Position numbers and translations under genes: made by a program
Notes under the pieces: generated by a model
What the model was told of the DNA's origin: nothing
The model's database searches: none
Seen by the model: only the letters and a program-made list of their open reading frames with translations
Assembly: GCF_001753205.1 (NCBI RefSeq)
Contig: NZ_CP017560.1
Span: 2,728,001 to 2,792,000, forward strand
Direction of reading: 5' to 3'
Origin: Sporosarcina ureilytica
GTDB taxonomy: Bacteria > Bacillota > Bacilli > Bacillales_A > Planococcaceae
DNA: 64,000 nt
Shown: positions 2,982 through 64,000 of the stretch, piece after piece
How the letters are laid out: each line of letters starts with the position of its first letter
Position numbering within the stretch: the first letter of the stretch is position 1

Positions 2982-3139
2982 TTCGACAACATCCTTCCTA
3001 TTTCACCAGTTTAACAGGGAAGTCATACAAGTTAAAGGGTCTTAATGAACATTCTTTCTTGCATATCCATGAGTTTAGATTTATAATACAGTCAATTCAA
3101 CATAAATGTAGTTTGCTTAATTCATAAAAAATAAAAAGC

Positions 3140-4641
<1,502 letters not shown>

Positions 4642-52259: not shown

Positions 52260-52613
52260 TTATTGCTTTGTATCATAATAGGCGCCGTCTTGGGCCATAT
52301 TTCCATAGGGATTCACGTAATTTTTCATATTCGTCTTCTTCGATTGGGCGACAGAAATATCTTTGCGAATTCCTTTTGTAAAGATAGCTAACTGCGTTTG
52401 TAACTTAGCTTCTAACTTAGTAAGCTCTTTACCTAAAACTTCTTCCTCTTTTGTAAAAGGCGCCTTTATTTCAGGTTGAAGCTGGTCGCGAACGTCTAAA
52501 AGTTTCTCGATTCTTTCAATTGCTTCATCACGCTTCTCGTCACCGACATTTTCTGAAACGCTTAAAAGACTATCTGTTGCTCTCTGCCAATCAATGAGCG
52601 CTTTTCTAATCAT
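52260..52613 (-). CDS. fliT: FliT-like flagellar protein
   Basis: A 117-residue helical, charged protein that closes the flaG-fliD-fliS run, where FliT (FliD export chaperone and regulator) stands in Bacilli. The first 90 residues form long helices (LIDWQRATDSLLSVSENV, IERIEKLLDVRDQLQPEI), and the tail NYVNPYGNMAQDGAYYD resembles other FliT-like tails in Bacilli. Sequence identity with B. subtilis is low, so the name rests mainly on position. It overlaps fliS by 4 nt. Confidence 0.75.
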   Translation of the reverse strand: MIRKALIDWQRATDSLLSVSENVGDEKRDEAIERIEKLLDVRDQLQPEIKAPFTKEEEVLGKELTKLEAKLQTQLAIFTKGIRKDISVAQSKKTNMKNYVNPYGNMAQDGAYYDTKQ

Positions 52614-53011
52614 ATTTCGTCCACATTGGCATACTGTTTTTGGCGGTTAATTTGGATGACTTCTTTCCATGTATCACGGAATTCTTTAATAATTCCCGCC
52701 GCTTCTTCTAATAAAGCAGCGTCATTTGCAATATTTCCGTCAATCAATCTACTATTTGCAAATTCATAAAGAATCATCATATTTTCAGCGACTGGCACGG
52801 ATGTATCTAACGTCACCATCAATTCTGAAATAATGGCTTGTGCCTTTTGAATAGCCGTATTCTTCTCTTCAATATTTCCGTTTTCTAGCGCTCGTTTTGC
52901 TTGTTCAATAAATTTCAAACAGCCATTGTAAAGCATTAACGTTAATTCTCCTGGCGTTGAAGTGTTCACCGAGTTATTCCGATATGCTGCATATGGGTTG
53001 TGAATAGCCAT
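52610..53011 (-). CDS. fliS: Flagellar export chaperone FliS
   Basis: Binds unassembled flagellin in the cytoplasm and delivers it for export. Opening block NPYAAYRNNSVNTSTPGELT and the following LMLYNGCLKFIEQAKRALE are family marks. At 133 aa it has usual length. It has GGAGAAATGT upstream and sits between fliD and fliT. Confidence 0.95.
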   Translation of the reverse strand: MAIHNPYAAYRNNSVNTSTPGELTLMLYNGCLKFIEQAKRALENGNIEEKNTAIQKAQAIISELMVTLDTSVPVAENMMILYEFANSRLIDGNIANDAALLEEAAGIIKEFRDTWKEVIQINRQKQYANVDEI

Positions 53012-53058: not shown

Positions 53059-54540
53059 TTACATCATCAGACCGCCAAGAGCATTCATTAACTGTTCTGC
53101 TTGCGAATTGGCGCGTTGCATAGCTTGTTCCATAGCTGTAAACTGCTTATAATAACGCTCTTCCATTTTTTTTAGACGATTTTCGAAACGTTCAATTTGC
53201 TCATCCATCTGTTTAATATTACGACCTATAGGAAAGCTTTCATTAGCTGCACCAGAACTTCCCGCTCGATTTGAAATTGCATCATTCCCTTTTTTCAACG
53301 CTGTACGAACACTATGAATAAGTCCTGGATCATTCGTATCTGACCCGGACCTACCTAATAATTCATAAACTTTATTGGGATCTGTTGAAATAACCTCACG
53401 AAGTTTCTTTTCATCTATTTCAAGCATTCCATTTGCTAAATGGTCGTTAGACGTCGTAATTCCGATGTCAGCCAATATGATTCCACTTTTGCTATCTTTG
53501 GGTTCCTTGACGCTACTACTTAACGCTAGCCGCATATTTTGCAGCATACTTTGAATAATTGAGTCATTTCGAAGGGTACCACTCTTCGCTTTTTCTTCCC
53601 ATAACTCAATTTCTTTTTCTTTCATGTCTGCTTTTTCTTCCGTAGAAAGAGGATGATAGTCACGATACCTCGTTTCTCTCACTTTTGAGTTTAAATTTTT
53701 AATTAAGTCGTTATAATCATCGACAAACTTTTTCACGGTATCGAATACCTTATCAACATCTGCTGCTGAGTTAAATGTTACGGGGGAATTCGTTACTTCT
53801 TTTAACGTAATTTCAAAGCCGTTAATCTCGAATGTGTTGGAAGAACGTTCCATGTTATCCATTCCATTTAACGTAAACTTTGCATCTTGACCTGGTTGAC
53901 CTCCCGATTTTTCGACCCATGTGTTATCCGGATCACCAGGTTCTCCTGGCTTCTCTGGGTCTGCGGGAATAAAAACTTCAATTTCCCCTGCACCTGTGTT
54001 TTTAGCAGTCATCCCAAGTCTTCCGCTACGTTCATCAAAAAAAACGTTCACATTTGAGTCTTTATTAAGTCTATCAACGACTGATTTAATTGATTCTTGC
54101 TCACCAATTTCAAACACTTTCGTTTCACCGTCTGGCGTTTTGATGGCTATTGTATCGCTTTCAATTAGTTCTCGAAAATTTGACTTTTCTTTTAAGTCCT
54201 TATTTGCAGCTTCCGTTTGCCAAGTAGCCGCTTTAGCAAGCCGTTCGACTTCAATCGTTCCTGAAAACTCCGATGAAGCACTTAAGGCACGTATCCCCAC
54301 CGCATTTTCATTCGAAACATTTACCGTTTTCGCCATATAGGTACTTGATTGCGTCATTTTAAACAGATTGTCCCACATAGAGCGAACGTCTTTATTTACA
54401 CTTCTATAATCATCTACTTGCCATTCTACAAATTGTTTTTTCTGTGTAATTTTATTGAGGGGAAAACGATGCGCCCTCATCATATCGTTAATAATCGATT
54501 CTGTATCAATTCCTGATGCTAATCCGCTTATTCGCATCAT
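53059..54540 (-). CDS. fliD: Flagellar hook-associated protein 2 (filament cap)
   Basis: FliD forms the cap that adds flagellin to the filament tip. MMRISGLASGIDTESIIND opens the N-terminal domain, and the C-terminal coiled coil (about 440-490) ends MERANSQAEQLMNALGGLMM-like, which fits the terminal D0 helices. 493 aa. Follows flaG by 15 bp and precedes fliS by 48 bp, so it belongs to the sigma-D-driven operon. Confidence 0.95.
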   Translation of the reverse strand: MMRISGLASGIDTESIINDMMRAHRFPLNKITQKKQFVEWQVDDYRSVNKDVRSMWDNLFKMTQSSTYMAKTVNVSNENAVGIRALSASSEFSGTIEVERLAKAATWQTEAANKDLKEKSNFRELIESDTIAIKTPDGETKVFEIGEQESIKSVVDRLNKDSNVNVFFDERSGRLGMTAKNTGAGEIEVFIPADPEKPGEPGDPDNTWVEKSGGQPGQDAKFTLNGMDNMERSSNTFEINGFEITLKEVTNSPVTFNSAADVDKVFDTVKKFVDDYNDLIKNLNSKVRETRYRDYHPLSTEEKADMKEKEIELWEEKAKSGTLRNDSIIQSMLQNMRLALSSSVKEPKDSKSGIILADIGITTSNDHLANGMLEIDEKKLREVISTDPNKVYELLGRSGSDTNDPGLIHSVRTALKKGNDAISNRAGSSGAANESFPIGRNIKQMDEQIERFENRLKKMEERYYKQFTAMEQAMQRANSQAEQLMNALGGLMM

Positions 54541-54554
54541 TTTTCACGCCTTTC

Positions 54555-54893
54555 TTAAATCTTTCTGTCTATGAACACACTGAGAAATTCTTTCATTGCC
54601 GCATGAATATCCATTAATTTCTTAGCTGGAATTTCTTTTATAACTTCATCGGTTTCTGTATTCACAATCGTCACATAGTACTCATTCAATTCCTCATGAA
54701 GTTCAAACTTTAAATGAGAATCTGTACTCGTTAAAAACTTATTGATACTTTCGGTCATTGTTTTTGCATTTGGTATAGATAACTCTAAATCATTCGTTTT
54801 ATTTTCATCTACATCTATTTTTTCGGATTGAACCTTCACTAGATTCTCAATTTGTATTGCAGTCTGAGTACCTTCCATTCGATTCACCAACAT
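54555..54893 (-). CDS. flaG: FlaG family protein
   Basis: Small flagellar protein (112 aa from the chosen start) that affects filament length in other bacteria; corresponds to YvyC of B. subtilis. The C-terminal half LKFELHEELNEYYVTIVNTE, EVIKEIPAKKLMDIHAAMKE is the FlaG signature. Start MLVNRMEGTQ behind GGGGAGGTT; a longer frame begins six codons earlier. First gene of flaG-fliD-fliS-fliT, with a sigma-D promoter 41 bp upstream. Confidence 0.92.
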   Translation of the reverse strand: MLVNRMEGTQTAIQIENLVKVQSEKIDVDENKTNDLELSIPNAKTMTESINKFLTSTDSHLKFELHEELNEYYVTIVNTETDEVIKEIPAKKLMDIHAAMKEFLSVFIDRKI

Positions 54894-54933
54894 ACCCAAC
54901 CTCCCCAACATTCGGTACGCATTATTATTCTTT

Positions 54934-54960
54934 ATATCGGCAAACCCACCTAAATGTTTA
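54934..54960 (-). promoter_or_regulatory. Sigma-D promoter of the flaG-fliD-fliS-fliT operon
   Basis: On the minus strand: TAAA, 15 bp, GCCGATAT. This is an exact fit to the SigD consensus used for late flagellar and chemotaxis genes in Bacilli. It stands just upstream of flaG. Confidence 0.93.
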
Positions 54961-57396: not shown

Positions 57397-57606
57397 AGTC
57401 TATTCACATTCCGAGTAGATTAACTGCTTTGGCTCTTTCATCTATAACCATAATAGTTTCCCTGAAAATAAATAGCAGATGCCCATCTCTGTGTGTTATA
57501 AGGAACAAGGGTTGAATTGACAATTCCATAAATAGGAAGATATGATAAGGATGCATACTAATGACTATGGTTAAAATTGTTTAGGTTGATAGCTAGGAGG
57601 ATTTAT

Positions 57607-58560
57607 ATGAATTATGGTTTTGACCAAAATGGAAAGCCAACGATGGTATATGGTGTCGGTGAAATAGAGACTGCTAGCAGAGGGCTTGTTTATGTCATTT
57701 TGGTTTTATTGGGCATTGGAATTGTTTCCTTTGTGCTTACCTTATTTTTTGCCCTTTGGGTTGCTGTAGATCTTTTTGTATACTTCTTTTTAGAAGGTCT
57801 GCTACCATTAAAATTTTGGTTTTATTTTGCGGAATTAGATCATTGGATTGGCGTATGGGATAAATCACCCCAAAAATCTGTATTCTTTATAGCTGGTCTA
57901 GCTATCTTGTTCTTCATATTTTACAGAGTTTGGAAAAAACGTATCCAACCCGGCGTTGTTAAAACAATCGGAAAGATATGGATTGGCTCCAATTTAGCTA
58001 TTCTAGCTTTTCGACTTCCCCTGTACATTGGATTATCAATCTATATTGCACTTGTGGGGATTGACGACTTTCACTTGTTCAAATCAGAAAAGGTTGAATA
58101 TGTAAAACGTGAAAGCGGTTTTTACGCGAATCATTCAGATGCAACGATTGATACTAACCATAGTAAGATTTTCAATAAAAAAATAAAAGAAGATATCAAT
58201 GGTACAGAATACGATGATTATATGATAGTTACATCTGGAACAAAACCTAACTCAGAAGAACCTGGTTATTGGACTTTGGTTAGTTTGAATTTACATAAGA
58301 AAGTGGATGAAATATTGTTTATTGGGGCTTTTGTGGAGTCTATGCAGGTGGATAAAAACAACCCACTAAGCGTTCAAATTAAAACCGGTCGGGAAATGGA
58401 ACAAGAAAAAATAATCTTTGAAAAAACATTCACAGATATCCATCAAGTAGAGGAGTTTAAGGTTAACGTCAAAAACTCAGAGTTAGTAGACATAATTATT
58501 TCAAGTGACCATGAGTTCAACTTTGGTATTTTTGAATTGAAGAAATACATGTCTAAATAA
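57607..58560 (+). CDS. Hypothetical membrane protein
   Basis: A 317-residue protein with four predicted hydrophobic helices in residues 25-155 (GLVYVILVLLGIGIVSFVLT, FIAGLAILFFIFYRVW, IGSNLAILAFRLPLYIGLSI) and a soluble C-terminal part of about 150 residues, which would lie outside if an even number of helices is crossed. Start MNYGFDQNGK behind TAGGAGG at 7-nt spacing. No family recognised. AT-rich and unlike its neighbours in content, next to the IS21 element, so it may be a strain-specific gene. Confidence 0.7.
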   Translation: MNYGFDQNGKPTMVYGVGEIETASRGLVYVILVLLGIGIVSFVLTLFFALWVAVDLFVYFFLEGLLPLKFWFYFAELDHWIGVWDKSPQKSVFFIAGLAILFFIFYRVWKKRIQPGVVKTIGKIWIGSNLAILAFRLPLYIGLSIYIALVGIDDFHLFKSEKVEYVKRESGFYANHSDATIDTNHSKIFNKKIKEDINGTEYDDYMIVTSGTKPNSEEPGYWTLVSLNLHKKVDEILFIGAFVESMQVDKNNPLSVQIKTGREMEQEKIIFEKTFTDIHQVEEFKVNVKNSELVDIIISSDHEFNFGIFELKKYMSK

Positions 58561-58875: not shown

Positions 58876-58987
58876 TGTAAACGCTAAACTAGAATAGACA
58901 GTTATCGCCAAACAAGATTGGACACTTTTCGATACAAAATAACCCTAGTAATCTATAATTTTTAGTATGGATGAGGGGGATCGAAAG

Positions 58988-60552
58988 GTGAAAAAATTAA
59001 TGTTATATGTTGAAATTCAACAAATGGCTGCACAAAAGTTTTCAATACTAGAGATTTCCAGGCAATTAAAAATCTCTCGAACAACTGTATATAAATATTT
59101 AGATATGTCCTTTGAAGAGGCAACTGAATGGGCTAATTCATTGAGTACAAGGAAGAAAAAACTTGATCCATATAAAGAATGGATTATAGCATGGTTGCGA
59201 GAATACCCACATTTGAGCGCTGCTCAAATCAAAGATTGGTTATTAGAGAGGTTTCCTGATCTTGAAGTCGCTGATAGTACGACGAGGCTTTATGTTAACG
59301 AAGTTCGTGAAGAATACCAAATAGCCAAGACGAAAAAAGTGCGACAATACGAGGCCGTTGAAGAACAACCAATGGGTAAGCAAATGCAAGTGGATTGGGG
59401 AGAAACAAAACAAAAAACTGAAGATAAAAAAGAGAAAAAGCTTCATTTTATTTCCTTTGTTTTATCACACTCCCGCTACAAATATATCGAATGGCAAGAC
59501 CGCCCTTTTACAACGAGGGATACAATTCGATGTCATGAAAATGCTTTTCAATATTATGGTGGAATGCCAGAGGAAATCGTTTATGACCAGGATCACTTAA
59601 TAACTGTAAGTGAGAATGCAGGGGATATTATTTTAACTGGAGAATTCCAGGCTTATAAAGAGCAACGTGGCTTTCGTATGTATCTTTGTAGAAAGTCTGA
59701 TCCCGAGTCAAAAGGAAAAATAGAAAACGTCGTTAAATATGTAAAGTACAATTTCGCGGATAGTCGTATATTCACAAATATTGATAATTGGAATGAGCGT
59801 TGCCTGGCTTGGTTGAAAAGAACTGGAAATCACAATGTCCATCAGACAATTAAAAAAAGACCGGAAGAAGTGTTTCTCCTAGAAAAGCAACACTTACAAC
59901 CAGTCTCTTACCTACTCTCGAAAGAGAGTATCCATAAACCTAGTATAACAAGAGTTGTAAATAAGGACAATACAATCACTTATAAGTCAAATCGTTATTC
60001 TGTCCCAATCGGCACCTACAGACCTAAAGGTGTCTGAATACCGTTGTAATTGATATTCAAGAAGAAAAAGATGATAAAAACACTCTGGTAATTAGGACAG
60101 ATAACGCTAGTGAAGTCCTAGCCAGACACGAATTATCTATCGGTAAAGGCCAATTAATCAAAAATAGAAATCACCAAAGAGACCGTTCTAAAGGAATCGA
60201 AGCATTTAAAGAAACTGTTGTCCGACAGTTTCAAGACACAGAACTTGCATCAGTTTACATAGGACAACTCCTAAATCTTTATCCAAGGTATCGCAGGGAT
60301 CAACTAACTACCCTGCAAAAAGCAACTATAGATTACTCTACTGTAATTGATGAAGCGCTTCTGAAATGTGTTAGGGAGAAGCTGATAAGTGCAAATGATT
60401 TTAGAGATGTGTCTAAGTTTTTGAGTTTAAATCTACAGCATTCTAGTGAAGGTCCTATTAAAAAGTACAAGCGTAAAAATCATGTGAATATTGAAGTGGA
60501 GACGCGACCAATCAGTACCTATACCGCTATATTAGGAGGTGTTTCTTTATGA
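58988..60552 (+). pseudogene. istA: IS21 transposase IstA, frameshifted
   Basis: IstA cuts and joins DNA. N-terminal HTH (SILEISRQLKISRTTVYKYL), then an RNase H-like core with acidic residues in QVDWGETKQ, VYDQDHL and the late Glu in DPESKGKIENVV. The first frame stops at 60035-60037 after YRPKGV; the reading continues in the -1 frame (NTVVIDIQEEKDD ... TYTAILGGVSL) to 60552. No usual slippery heptamer is seen, so a one-base mutation is likelier than programmed shifting. Start at GTG 58988 behind GAGGGGG. The C-terminal part still ends with an ATGA overlap onto istB. Confidence 0.88.
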
Positions 60553-61316
60553 GTGAGACGATAAGAACACTCCAAGATCAGTTTAAGCAACTTCGTCTAT
60601 CCGAAACAGCAACTGAGCTTCCGACAATTCTCAGGCAGGCCGAACAGGCCTCCTGGACATATCGGGAATTCATTCAAGAAATTGTAAGTTATGAGTTAAA
60701 GAAACGTGAAGAAAAGAGTATTGAGAGGCGAATGAACTGGGCGAAATTCCCCTATATTAAAACGTTGAAGGAATTTGATTTGACTGAACAAGAATCGCTT
60801 AGTAGTCGCCAATTGACGCAGCTAGAAGAGTTGCATTGGCTAGAGGAACAATACAATATCATTCTATTAGGCCCACCTGGGGTGGGAAAAACACATATCT
60901 CAATTGGCATTGGGATAGAAGCAATCCAAAAAGGTTTTCAAGTTATGTTCGTTACGATGGGTGAACTTGTTAACCTACTCAAAACAGAAGAGTATATTCG
61001 AAAATCCCAAGTACAATTAAATCGAATCAGGAAGTCAGATTTAGTTATTATTGATGATTTAATGTACATGGCAATGGATCAGCGAGAAGCAAATTTGTTT
61101 TTTCATTTAATTAATCATCTTTATGAACGTAGTTCAATTATTTTAACTTCGAATAAAAGTCCAGACCAATGGACTGAATTAATGGGAGATGAAGGTATCA
61201 CAACTGCAATATTAGATCGTCTACTGCATCGCGTTGAGGTCATTAATTTATATAACGATAGTTATCGCATGAAACATCGAGTAAGTTTGTTTGAAAGCGA
61301 AAGTGTTCAAAGTTAA
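60549..61316 (+). CDS. istB: IS21 helper ATPase IstB
   Basis: AAA+ ATPase of DnaC/IstB type that assists IstA in target choice and strand transfer. Walker A GPPGVGKTH at 108-116, Walker B LVIIDDLMYM near 176, and sensor TSNKSPDQW are intact. 255 aa is normal. AGGAGG precedes the ATG, which overlaps istA's final stop. It appears intact although istA is not. Confidence 0.94.
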   Translation: MSETIRTLQDQFKQLRLSETATELPTILRQAEQASWTYREFIQEIVSYELKKREEKSIERRMNWAKFPYIKTLKEFDLTEQESLSSRQLTQLEELHWLEEQYNIILLGPPGVGKTHISIGIGIEAIQKGFQVMFVTMGELVNLLKTEEYIRKSQVQLNRIRKSDLVIIDDLMYMAMDQREANLFFHLINHLYERSSIILTSNKSPDQWTELMGDEGITTAILDRLLHRVEVINLYNDSYRMKHRVSLFESESVQS

Positions 61317-62070: not shown

Positions 62071-63186
62071 TCATATGCTCTTAATCTTGCCCGTAACAAT
62101 TTCAAACAACTTATCACTATCTATCAAACTATTACCTGCACGACTCGTTTGAGATAACGAATTCTCTATTAAACTAAAATCATTTTTTGAAAGATTATAT
62201 TCGTTATAATCCGTGCTAACATATAATTTTCCGAATAATTCTTCTAGACTCCCTACTGGGTTTTGCCCTAGACTATTTTGTAAATATAGTCTTAATTCAT
62301 CGTTTGATAAAGCGACTTTTACTATATCTGGAAGTGTTATACTTGCTGCAATGCCATGCGGAATGTCTTTATGTAACGTCATATAATAAGACATAGCATG
62401 GGCAATTGCCGTTTGCGTATTTGAAAATGCTAGACCTGCTTGCAAAGTGGCTAACATCATTTCTGCCCGCAGACTTACATCATCTAAATTGTTCACTAGC
62501 TTTGGTAAGATATCTATTATTTTAGGTATTGCACTAGTTGCATAACTTAACGATAAGGGACTAGAATTCACATTCCATATGGACTCAAGACTATGCGACA
62601 ATGCATCTAAACCCGTTTGTATTGTTAAATCCATCGGTAATGTCAATGTCAAGTTTGGATCACATAGAGCAACTTCACACCATAGTTGATCCGTATGAAT
62701 AGAATATTTCTTCTTGTTGACATCATCCCAAATTGTTCCCCATGGCGTTACCTCACTACCTGTCCCAGCTGTTGTGGGGATTGCAATAATCGGTTTATAT
62801 AGAATATCATTAGACTGATGACCATTCGTTAACATTTCTCGAATTAATTTAAACGGCTCTACATATGAACTTTCTTTATAAATCGAAAGAGCCTTAGCAA
62901 TATCGATTACACTTCCGCCTCCTAACGCAACAATTACATCAAACGAATCAAAATTAAGTTCTTTATATAAAACTTCCAATTGTTTAAGTGTTGGATTTGG
63001 CTGTATATCGTTAATGATTTGGGTAATCAATGGATTCTTCTCTACTATTAAATTAACGAAACCACGTGTTTGAAATCCTTTAGAAGTAATTAAAAGCGCT
63101 TTCCGATCACCAATCCATAAAGGTAACCTTTCTAATGAACCAATACCAAAGTCAATTTTAACGGGATTATAATATTTGAAATTCAA
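62071..63186 (-). CDS. Iron-containing alcohol dehydrogenase, probable phosphonoacetaldehyde reductase
   Basis: Type III (Fe-ADH) dehydrogenase of 371 aa. NAD-binding GGGSVIDIAKA near residue 91, TTAGTGSEVT near 138, metal ligands in GLDALSHSLES (Asp, His), and AIAHAMSYYMTLHKDIPHG (His, His). Such enzymes reduce phosphonoacetaldehyde to 2-hydroxyethylphosphonate in phosphonate pathways (PhpC). The neighbours are a nucleotidyltransferase and the tail of phosphonopyruvate decarboxylase, so this role is likely but inferred. ATGA overlap with the nucleotidyltransferase stop. Confidence 0.85.
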   Translation of the reverse strand: MNFKYYNPVKIDFGIGSLERLPLWIGDRKALLITSKGFQTRGFVNLIVEKNPLITQIINDIQPNPTLKQLEVLYKELNFDSFDVIVALGGGSVIDIAKALSIYKESSYVEPFKLIREMLTNGHQSNDILYKPIIAIPTTAGTGSEVTPWGTIWDDVNKKKYSIHTDQLWCEVALCDPNLTLTLPMDLTIQTGLDALSHSLESIWNVNSSPLSLSYATSAIPKIIDILPKLVNNLDDVSLRAEMMLATLQAGLAFSNTQTAIAHAMSYYMTLHKDIPHGIAASITLPDIVKVALSNDELRLYLQNSLGQNPVGSLEELFGKLYVSTDYNEYNLSKNDFSLIENSLSQTSRAGNSLIDSDKLFEIVTGKIKSI

Positions 63187-63896
63187 CGAAACATCTCCTT
63201 CGCCCTCTCATAATCTTCAAGAAAATCAACTTCTATCCATGGTTCTTGACTTGTAGGATAGCAAAGTATCTTTAATCCATCTTGTGCCATATTTGTAAAA
63301 GCAAATGTATCATAATCATTATAATGCTCTCCGGTTAAAGCATTTTCAATATAAGTAAATACAGCTTCCGGATTATGAATTGCTGCAAGGCCAATCCATT
63401 CTCCATCACTTTTATTCGGTGTAATTTCCTTATTAGATTCAATTAAATAATGTTGATCTGTTACAGATACTTTCATCGCTTCTTCATTCGTCTCTTTAAA
63501 ATCAACGGATAAATCCATTGCAGTTGAAGCATCTTTTGTACTCTCGATGAAGTTCGACAATAATGTTTCCGAAAAAATCACATCGCCATGTAAATAATAA
63601 AATGGTTCTTGACCAACAGCGGTTTTAGCAAACCATAATGACCCCATATTATTGCAATATTTATAAAACGGATTGAAAATAAATTCTGCTTGACCTTTTG
63701 CTTTACTCATAATATTTTCTTTACGATACCCTACAACTATAAAAACTTCTTCTACGCCATGTGCTTTTAATAAAGATATATTTCTTAACAAGATTTCTTC
63801 ATTATTTACTTTCAACAAAGTTTTAGGCGTGTCTAAAGTCAATGGGTATAATCTACTTGATAGACCTGCTGCAACAATCACTGCTTTTTTTATCAA
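63183..63896 (-). CDS. Nucleotidyltransferase, probable phosphonate cytidylyltransferase (LicC/PntC-like)
   Basis: A 237-aa GT-A-fold nucleotidyltransferase. N-terminal signature AVIVAAGLSSRLYPLT, then TPKTLLKVN, and the metal-binding Asp in YLHGDVIFS near residue 105; FAFTNMAQDGLKI and EPWIEVDFLEDYERA end it as in choline-phosphate cytidylyltransferases. PntC-like enzymes activate aminoethyl- or hydroxyethylphosphonate with CTP for attachment to glycans or lipids. TTG start overlapping the stop of the upstream gene, ATGA link to the downstream gene. Nucleotide specificity cannot be read directly. Confidence 0.85.
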   Translation of the reverse strand: MIKKAVIVAAGLSSRLYPLTLDTPKTLLKVNNEEILLRNISLLKAHGVEEVFIVVGYRKENIMSKAKGQAEFIFNPFYKYCNNMGSLWFAKTAVGQEPFYYLHGDVIFSETLLSNFIESTKDASTAMDLSVDFKETNEEAMKVSVTDQHYLIESNKEITPNKSDGEWIGLAAIHNPEAVFTYIENALTGEHYNDYDTFAFTNMAQDGLKILCYPTSQEPWIEVDFLEDYERAKEMFR

Positions 63897-64000
63897 TTTT
63901 TATCACCGCTTATATATTTAATAAGTCTATTCTTCACTTCAAATGGCTTCACTTTTGGGCGTGCTAAATCTTCTTTTACACCTGGACTTGTTTTAAGATA
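63893..64000 (-). CDS. Phosphonopyruvate decarboxylase, C-terminal end only
   Basis: The last 35 codons (LKTSPGVKEDLARPKVKPFE, then VKNRLIKYISGDKN) of a gene starting beyond the window. The block G-x-x-x-DLxRPxxxPxExK is the usual C-terminal end of Ppd/AepY, a TPP enzyme that turns phosphonopyruvate into phosphonoacetaldehyde. Overlap with the next gene's start shows one operon. The call rests on a short stretch plus the pathway context. Confidence 0.65.
   Translation of the reverse strand, partial: YLKTSPGVKEDLARPKVKPFEVKNRLIKYISGDKN

Follow-up and report, generated by a model that had tools for sequence, protein, structure and literature searches.

Why would genes for the biosynthesis of a phosphonate, a rare type of carbon-phosphorus compound, lie among the flagellar genes of a bacterium, and to what would their product be attached? 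The question is raised by a stretch of 64,000 nucleotides of Sporosarcina ureilytica (hereafter the window; bases 2728001-2792000 of the 3.44 Mb single-contig genome, G000 among the genomes compared here), which ends within an operon of this kind; the sequence past window position 64000 was read as the stretches L002 and L003. Our answer, to which we assign a probability of roughly two in three, is that the operon is a decoration cassette of a flagellin-glycosylation island, in which 2-hydroxyethylphosphonate (HEP) activated with cytidine monophosphate (CMP-HEP) would be made and moved onto the flagellin glycan, likely by a sulfatase-fold protein with N-terminal TPR-like helices (TPR-sulfatase). 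Phosphonate tailoring via CTP activation by the cytidylyltransferase PntC is known (PMC6697681).

Results

A phosphonate operon inside a flagellin-glycosylation island

In the order of transcription, the operon comprises the TPR-sulfatase (L002:8665-10704), phosphoenolpyruvate mutase fused to a nucleotidyltransferase domain (PepM; L002:7035-8630), phosphonopyruvate decarboxylase (Ppd; L002:5894-7045, 383 aa, its 3' end at window positions 63893..64000 and open at the window end), a stand-alone LicC/PntC-like nucleotidyltransferase (NTase; 63183..63896, equal to L002:5184-5897; 237 aa; PF00483/PF12804) and an iron-containing alcohol dehydrogenase (Fe-ADH; 62071..63186, equal to L002:4072-5187; 371 aa; PF00465/PF25137). 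The gaps in that order are 34, −11, −4 and −4 bases, a spacing that is operon-like. The initial annotation had joined the Fe-ADH, the NTase and the tail of a Ppd into one overlapping operon, which is confirmed for the window genes: all are on the minus strand and overlap by 4 bases. It had also proposed looking beyond position 64000 for a pepM with the motif EDKxxxxxNS, and the gene is there. The mutase scores 394.6 bits with TIGR02320 (curated cut-off 319.55), carries the motif as EDKLFPKTNS and matches the solved mutase 1m1b with 468.8 bits. The partial gene is indeed Ppd, the complete protein reaching 388.9 bits with TIGR03297 (curated cut-off 312.5), which rules out acetolactate synthase or another thiamine pyrophosphate enzyme. 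With pepM upstream and Ppd identified, the proposal of an operon for phosphonate synthesis, probably with activation by CTP, is likewise supported.

The best NCBIfam model for the Fe-ADH, and for those of four relatives, is the phosphonate-associated TIGR03405; the enzyme may function like those of this family, yet is not classed as a member. Its motifs DALSH, IAHAMS and IPHG hold the Asp and three His residues of what we take to be the metal site, and it is predicted to reduce phosphonoacetaldehyde to HEP. The stand-alone NTase has LicC as its top PDB match (1jyk, 6.6e-16), also matches PntC-AEPT (6pd1, 1.7e-9) and has Arg15 and Lys25 (numbering of PMC6697681). Its loop, GLSSR, departs from the exact consensus GxG(T/S)RX4-8PK in that Ser replaces the second Gly, and we therefore call the enzyme LicC/PntC-like only; it is predicted to make CMP-HEP. 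No 2-aminoethylphosphonate (AEP) transaminase over the cut-off was found in the genome. A role as a phosphorus store was set aside, no phosphonatase over the cut-off having been found, although C-P lyase was never searched for.

Upstream of the operon and in the same direction lie genes for WbuX, an SDR protein, a CMP-nonulosonate-synthetase-like protein (PseF, 131.9 bits, under the cut-off of 205.7), a Gfo/Idh protein, a CBS-NTase, NeuD, NeuB, NeuC, LegC, LegB and Maf; beyond this Maf follow a second Maf on the opposite strand, flagellin (hag, L003:7199-8047), FliW, FlgL and FlgK. Downstream come an IS21 element, a chemoreceptor-like open reading frame (ORF) and, all on the minus strand, flaG (54555..54911, PF03646), which forms the downstream border of the island, the flagellar cap gene fliD (53059..54540, PF07195 and PF02465) and the flagellin chaperone gene fliS (52610..53011, PF02561). 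With two Maf genes and LegB, LegC, NeuC, NeuB and NeuD beside hag and fliD, the locus is a Maf-type flagellin-glycosylation island, in which pepM lies about 11 kb from flaG and about 17 kb from hag. The locus had been described as next to flagellar genes; these are nearby, but the phosphonate operon is inside the island, between hag and flaG-fliD-fliS, rather than merely adjacent. Among the ORFs from hag to fliS, not every one of which was scanned against the libraries, no flippase, polymerase, lipid-carrier transferase or exporter was noticed.

The IS21 element separates the phosphonate operon from flaG-fliD-fliS at that end of the island and consists, on the plus strand, of istB (60549..61316; IS21-type ATPase, PF01695 IstB_IS21, 248.7 bits) and an IS21-type transposase gene (58967..60037; PF00665 integrase core), named istA by its place before istB. 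Between this element and the chemoreceptor-like ORF, positions 57577-58560 encode a probable membrane protein of 327 aa without a Pfam match.

Recurrence of pepM in flagellar islands

PEP mutases over the cut-off occur in 7/68 genomes of the genus, 18/261 of the family, 30/368 of the class sample and 16/398 of the phylum sample (all counts include G000; contexts were read by tblastn with proteins of our own genome and, in some cases, by ORF listing). In the family, pepM lies within a flagellar island in six of the 18 genomes (G000, G051, G097, G136, G218, G260), and the class sample beyond the family adds three among 29 others (G687, G790, G927). Flagellar genes are found on both sides of pepM in six of these nine islands (G000, G136, G218, G260, G687, G051); only the hag side was seen in G097 and G790, and in G927 they are all on one side.

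The architecture of the mutase explains which pepM genes are so placed: PepM with a C-terminal NTase fusion is in a flagellar island in 8/9 class genomes, the exception being G235, compared with 0/37 for stand-alone PepM (Fisher p 3.4e-8, to be taken as indicative given the kinship of the genomes and the span of only about 10 kb read around the class loci). Flanks of about 20-30 kb were read for the family loci and about 10 kb for the class stand-alone set (26 genomes, 28 loci), less at contig ends; at distances of 11 and 17 kb, as in our own island, a 10-kb flank could miss flagellar genes. Within these 10 kb, no Maf, Leg or Neu markers were found near the class stand-alone loci, except for a weak LegB match in G819. 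G195, at a contig end, was counted as non-flagellar, and G094 was left out of the counts, its partial PepM match (L049) being below the cut-off and interrupted by one TAA stop; it is probably a decayed copy. In G620, from another family of the phylum sample, a pepM cluster that includes a class V aminotransferase has two flagellin-like genes at a distance of about 13 kb.

Other pepM loci have different neighbours. In G015, of the same genus, a stand-alone PepM-Ppd-aminotransferase cluster (L034:6291-11769) has as neighbours genes for a YheC/D ATP-grasp protein and for a LysM-GH18 protein, a setting that hints at a phosphonate associated with spores; the pepM of G235, too, lies near YheC/D and Mur-ligase-like genes. 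In a metagenome-assembled genome (L065:12728-15268), a gene for a CDP-alcohol phosphatidyltransferase comes after the same PepM-Ppd-LicC-FeADH block, which has NeuA/B/C matches beside it and no flagellar genes in view.

The mutases of the flagellar islands do not form a single group. In a PepM tree of 63 rows (G395 not recovered, G094 left out, G927 entered as a piece in L160), which leaves 25/60 inner branches open and carries a warning of long branches, six flagellar fused PepMs from two families make up a supported clade (96/98). The PepM of G051, which belongs to the same genus as the window, carries an N-terminal PF01467 domain and falls in a distant group of 12 rows; the gene order in this genome is hag, GT2 with TPR, PF04464 CDP-glycerol-type transferase, Ppd, NTase, PepM, Fe-ADH. 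Two PepM lineages thus share the flagellar placement, and the arrangement in G051 suggests independent assembly, although one PepM may instead have replaced another.

Two nucleotidyltransferases

In the PntC of T. denticola, replacement of Arg15, Lys25 or Lys153 by Ala leaves less than 10% of the activity, and PepM-NTase fusions, which are common among PepMs, have been read as a sign of activation (PMC6697681). Arg15 and Lys25 are kept by the stand-alone NTase in 5/5 rows, whereas the PepM-fused domain retains the Lys and lacks the signature Arg in 10/10 rows (our own L002:7035-8630 and nine relatives). From this difference we infer that the CMP ester is the product of the stand-alone enzyme, the fused domain being either altered or without activity in this step. 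The genes for reduction and amination do not overlap among the nine islands: Fe-ADH is present in seven, and the other two (G260, G927) have an NTase-aminotransferase fusion of the PntC-AEPT kind together with a methyltransferase.

TPR-sulfatase and other candidate transferases

Homologues of the TPR-sulfatase were found in 15/261 family genomes and three further class genomes, in every case (18/18) in a flagellar island. The gene stands beside pepM in five islands (G000, G136, G218, G260, G927) and, in three others, beside an NTase/EamA/NTase-choline-kinase operon (G111 by Pfam; G116 and G219 by tblastn); the island of G247 is cut by the contig end. The latter operons (L130:116-3353 in G111, L133 in G116, L131 in G219) encode an NTase, an EamA transporter and a choline kinase, the last of which is fused to an NTase in G111, and these lic-type islands suggest phosphocholine on flagellin. 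Since the TPR-sulfatase is accompanied in some islands by genes for CMP-phosphonate supply and in others by genes for CDP-choline supply, the protein is plausibly an enzyme that consumes these donors, a role that leaves nine islands with a methyltransferase only (see Discussion) unexplained. The Thr at its likely nucleophile position is invariant (64/64); in the alignment with 9bes it falls on X81, the modified residue, although the score of the stretch concerned is −0.1 bits. Outside the class, G458 has four TPR-sulfatase homologues of 175-250 bits around pepM (L105, G458:C1:1451972-1466313).

The transferase candidates of the nine pepM islands are the TPR-sulfatase in five, LicD (PF04991) in three (G097, G687, G790) and a PF04464 protein in one (G051); G097 has, in addition, a weak PF04464-like match (22% over half). 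LicD is a known phosphocholine-transferase family. LicD and a TPR-sulfatase homologue were not found in the same island (tblastn, E 1e-5, nine pepM islands). In G687 and G790, a divergent PF00884 protein that is missed by the TPR-sulfatase profile stands beside LicD (44.0 and 51.7 bits) and, by eye, has a Thr at the same distance ahead of the following T-G or T-N, which brings to seven of the nine the islands with a sulfatase-fold protein near pepM. Also beside LicD in G687 (L161:13995-18847) are genes for a methyltransferase, a HAD hydrolase and a further NTase, which may make up a second phospho cassette, of type-A-like character, adjoining that of pepM.

Promoter-like sequences

For a promoter scan of 55.9 kb, we took the sigma-D-type consensus to be TAAA-N15-GCCGATAT. 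The sole perfect match on either strand lies upstream of flaG (54934..54960, minus strand), and hag is preceded by a match with two mismatches. At two mismatches or fewer, the minus strand has 11 matches compared with 7.2 expected per strand (10 simulations). Elsewhere in the window, a T-box leader was found at positions 3132-3361 (RF00230, 115.4 bits).

Discussion

The results can be combined into a simple pathway. PepM would convert phosphoenolpyruvate to phosphonopyruvate, Ppd would decarboxylate this to phosphonoacetaldehyde, the Fe-ADH would reduce the aldehyde to HEP, and the stand-alone LicC-like enzyme would load HEP onto CMP. The phosphonyl group would then pass from CMP-HEP to a legionaminic-acid-type glycan, before or after Maf attaches this glycan to flagellin; the transferase for this step is most likely the TPR-sulfatase, with its invariant Thr as the nucleophile. 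Grounded in the sequence are the identity of PepM and Ppd, a gene spacing like that of an operon, the island and the fact that it recurs; the HEP product, the choice of NTase for the CMP step, the transferase and the acceptor we infer.

The recurrent flagellar placement makes the flagellin glycan the likely acceptor. Of the two destinations offered by the initial annotation, a surface polymer or a secreted phosphonate, the decorated surface is thus retained, and the secreted form is disfavoured. The phosphonate could be bound for another surface polymer, such as a wall polymer or capsule, the operon lying in the island merely because glycan genes gather there; PepM clusters are commonly linked to surface tailoring (PMC6697681), and no flagellar genes were seen at the related clusters L065, G235 and G458. 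We nevertheless consider this unlikely, given that pepM is flanked by flagellar genes on both sides in six islands and has them on at least one side in G097, G790 and G927, that no polymer export genes were noticed in our own island, and that the TPR-sulfatase is flagellar in all class genomes that have it. By far the least probable is a small secreted, antibiotic-like phosphonate: PepM, Ppd and Fe-ADH also open antibiotic pathways, but further tailoring, peptide-ligase or efflux genes were not noticed in the operon, and the placement in flagellar islands recurs.

As for the product, AEP in place of HEP would agree with the PntC-AEPT-like fusions of the sister islands G260 and G927 and with the flagellin phosphonate of C. 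difficile, which is 2-AEP (PMC8861647). We hold this to be improbable, and somewhat more so than another polymer, because our operon has an Fe-ADH where the aminotransferase would be, the two never occurring together among the nine islands, and because of the lack of an AEP transaminase over the cut-off in the genome. A more serious contender, which we judge possible although short of even odds, and which is compatible with the pathway up to the activated donor, is that the acceptor is right and the transferase another: the TPR-sulfatase would be a hydrolase or have another group as its substrate, and the phosphonate, or a sugar already bearing it, would be attached by Maf or by an unrecognised enzyme. 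The sulfatase fold family consists mostly of hydrolases, and LicD occurs in three pepM islands; pointing the other way are the alternation of TPR-sulfatase partners between pepM and lic-type operons, the four copies adjoining pepM in G458 and the Thr at the likely nucleophile position.

Several observations weigh against our reading. Nine TPR-sulfatase islands have an adjoining S-adenosylmethionine-dependent methyltransferase gene (for example, L116:17865-18527) and no match to pepM, lic, LicD or PF04464, nor any to a CTP-activation or kinase gene. In G458, no flagellar genes were seen within 10-20 kb of pepM, so that the phosphonate link can exist without the flagellar one. The co-occurrence of LicD and a sulfatase-fold protein in G687 and G790 indicates that they are not clean substitutes and argues against treating the transferases as mutually exclusive. 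The Fe-ADH scores 364.3 bits with TIGR03405, below the cut-off of 423.7, and those of the four relatives are also under it (328.1, 331.2, 350.2 and 238.4; 5/5 below). The Fisher p loses weight through the kinship of the genomes, and the flanks checked around the class stand-alone loci were at most about 10 kb long; C-terminally fused PepMs with no flagellar genes in view exist in G235 in the family, in G303, G571 and G634 in the phylum sample and in L065, and when all fused loci are counted, including these three phylum genomes with their short or limited flanks and L065, 8/13 are flagellar. Within the genus, the C-terminally fused form is present in 1/68 genomes. Finally, no sigma-D-like match was found ahead of the pepM operon in the 55.9 kb scanned, and a sigma-D promoter for it was accordingly rejected; a 452-base gap separates the operon from the legionaminate genes, and promoter-like matches around the operon are fewer than chance (33 found, 43.8 expected). 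For these three reasons, co-regulation with flagellin stays unsupported.

A broader proposal is that the TPR-sulfatases are a hitherto undescribed class of phosphonyl and phosphocholine transferases acting on flagellin glycans, around which Bacilli swap decoration cassettes in the flagellar island: HEP, AEP with a methyltransferase, phosphocholine, and a methylated group with an unrecognised donor. We advance this tentatively, as somewhat nearer to an even chance than the involvement of another transferase yet still below it, its probability being lowered by the two islands that combine LicD with a sulfatase-fold protein and by the G458 homologues outside flagellar islands.

Among known systems, the closest is the type A flagellin glycan of C. 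difficile 630, encoded by CD0240-CD0244 (PMC8861647; PMC4441256), for which a CTP-activated donor has been proposed (PMC11833859); models of the type A and b-type glycans are given in PMC4441256 and PMC11833859. There the flagellin glycan carries a phospho substituent, and 2-AEP on it was detected by mass spectrometry; here a phosphonate on the glycan is predicted from the genes. The species is reported to be pepM-negative and its source of AEP unknown (PMC8861647). The window island differs further in having Maf, legionaminate genes and a complete pepM operon, with HEP rather than AEP as the predicted product. G051, with hag, GT2/TPR and PF04464 beside the pepM genes, looks like the type A arrangement to which a phosphonate module has been joined. 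A PF04464-type phosphotransferase marks the type A cluster, and no tblastn match to that of G051 was found in the G000 stretches examined (E 1e-5), so that the window island is not of type A. The Pnt system has in common with our operon the activation by CTP, the fusion of PepM to a PF12804 domain and the presence, near pepM, of a second NTase of LicC-like type (PMC6697681), but here the fused domain lacks the signature Arg (0/10 have it) and the stand-alone enzyme keeps it (5/5). In marine bacteria, phosphonate has been proposed on O-glycosylated proteins, partly from gene neighbourhood, in a system with PglL-type oligosaccharyltransferases and capsule genes (PMC8931226), in place of which the present island has Maf and flagellin. 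In S1 sulfatases, a Cys or Ser is converted to formylglycine. From these enzymes and phosphonate monoester hydrolases (7ptj, 4uph), the TPR-sulfatase would be set apart by a Thr where formylglycine is likely to stand, by its TPR-like helices at the N terminus and by neighbours that supply phospho or phosphono donors.

Among the matches listed in the open-licence literature, no paper describes pepM in a flagellar locus. The string 'flagell' has 0 occurrences in the main text of PMC6697681, and 'phosphon' has 0 in those of the flagellin-island papers PMC13317340, PMC5109656, PMC4875605 and PMC2674064; the single report of phosphonate on bacterial flagellin that we found is that of 2-AEP in C. 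difficile (PMC8861647). Phosphonate tailoring is thus known as a kind; the new element is a form of it that is devoted to the flagellum and recurs, with HEP as the predicted product and with a candidate for a new transferase.

The presence of a whole phosphonate pathway within a flagellin-glycosylation island, and the like placement of two PepM lineages, make flagellin phosphonylation directly testable, and the TPR-sulfatase offers a concrete candidate for the tailoring step in which the glycan would receive the phosphonate from its CMP ester. The NTase domain commonly fused to PepM, in turn, may not be the activating enzyme. For Sporosarcina ureilytica itself, the gene content suggests a phosphonate-decorated flagellum.
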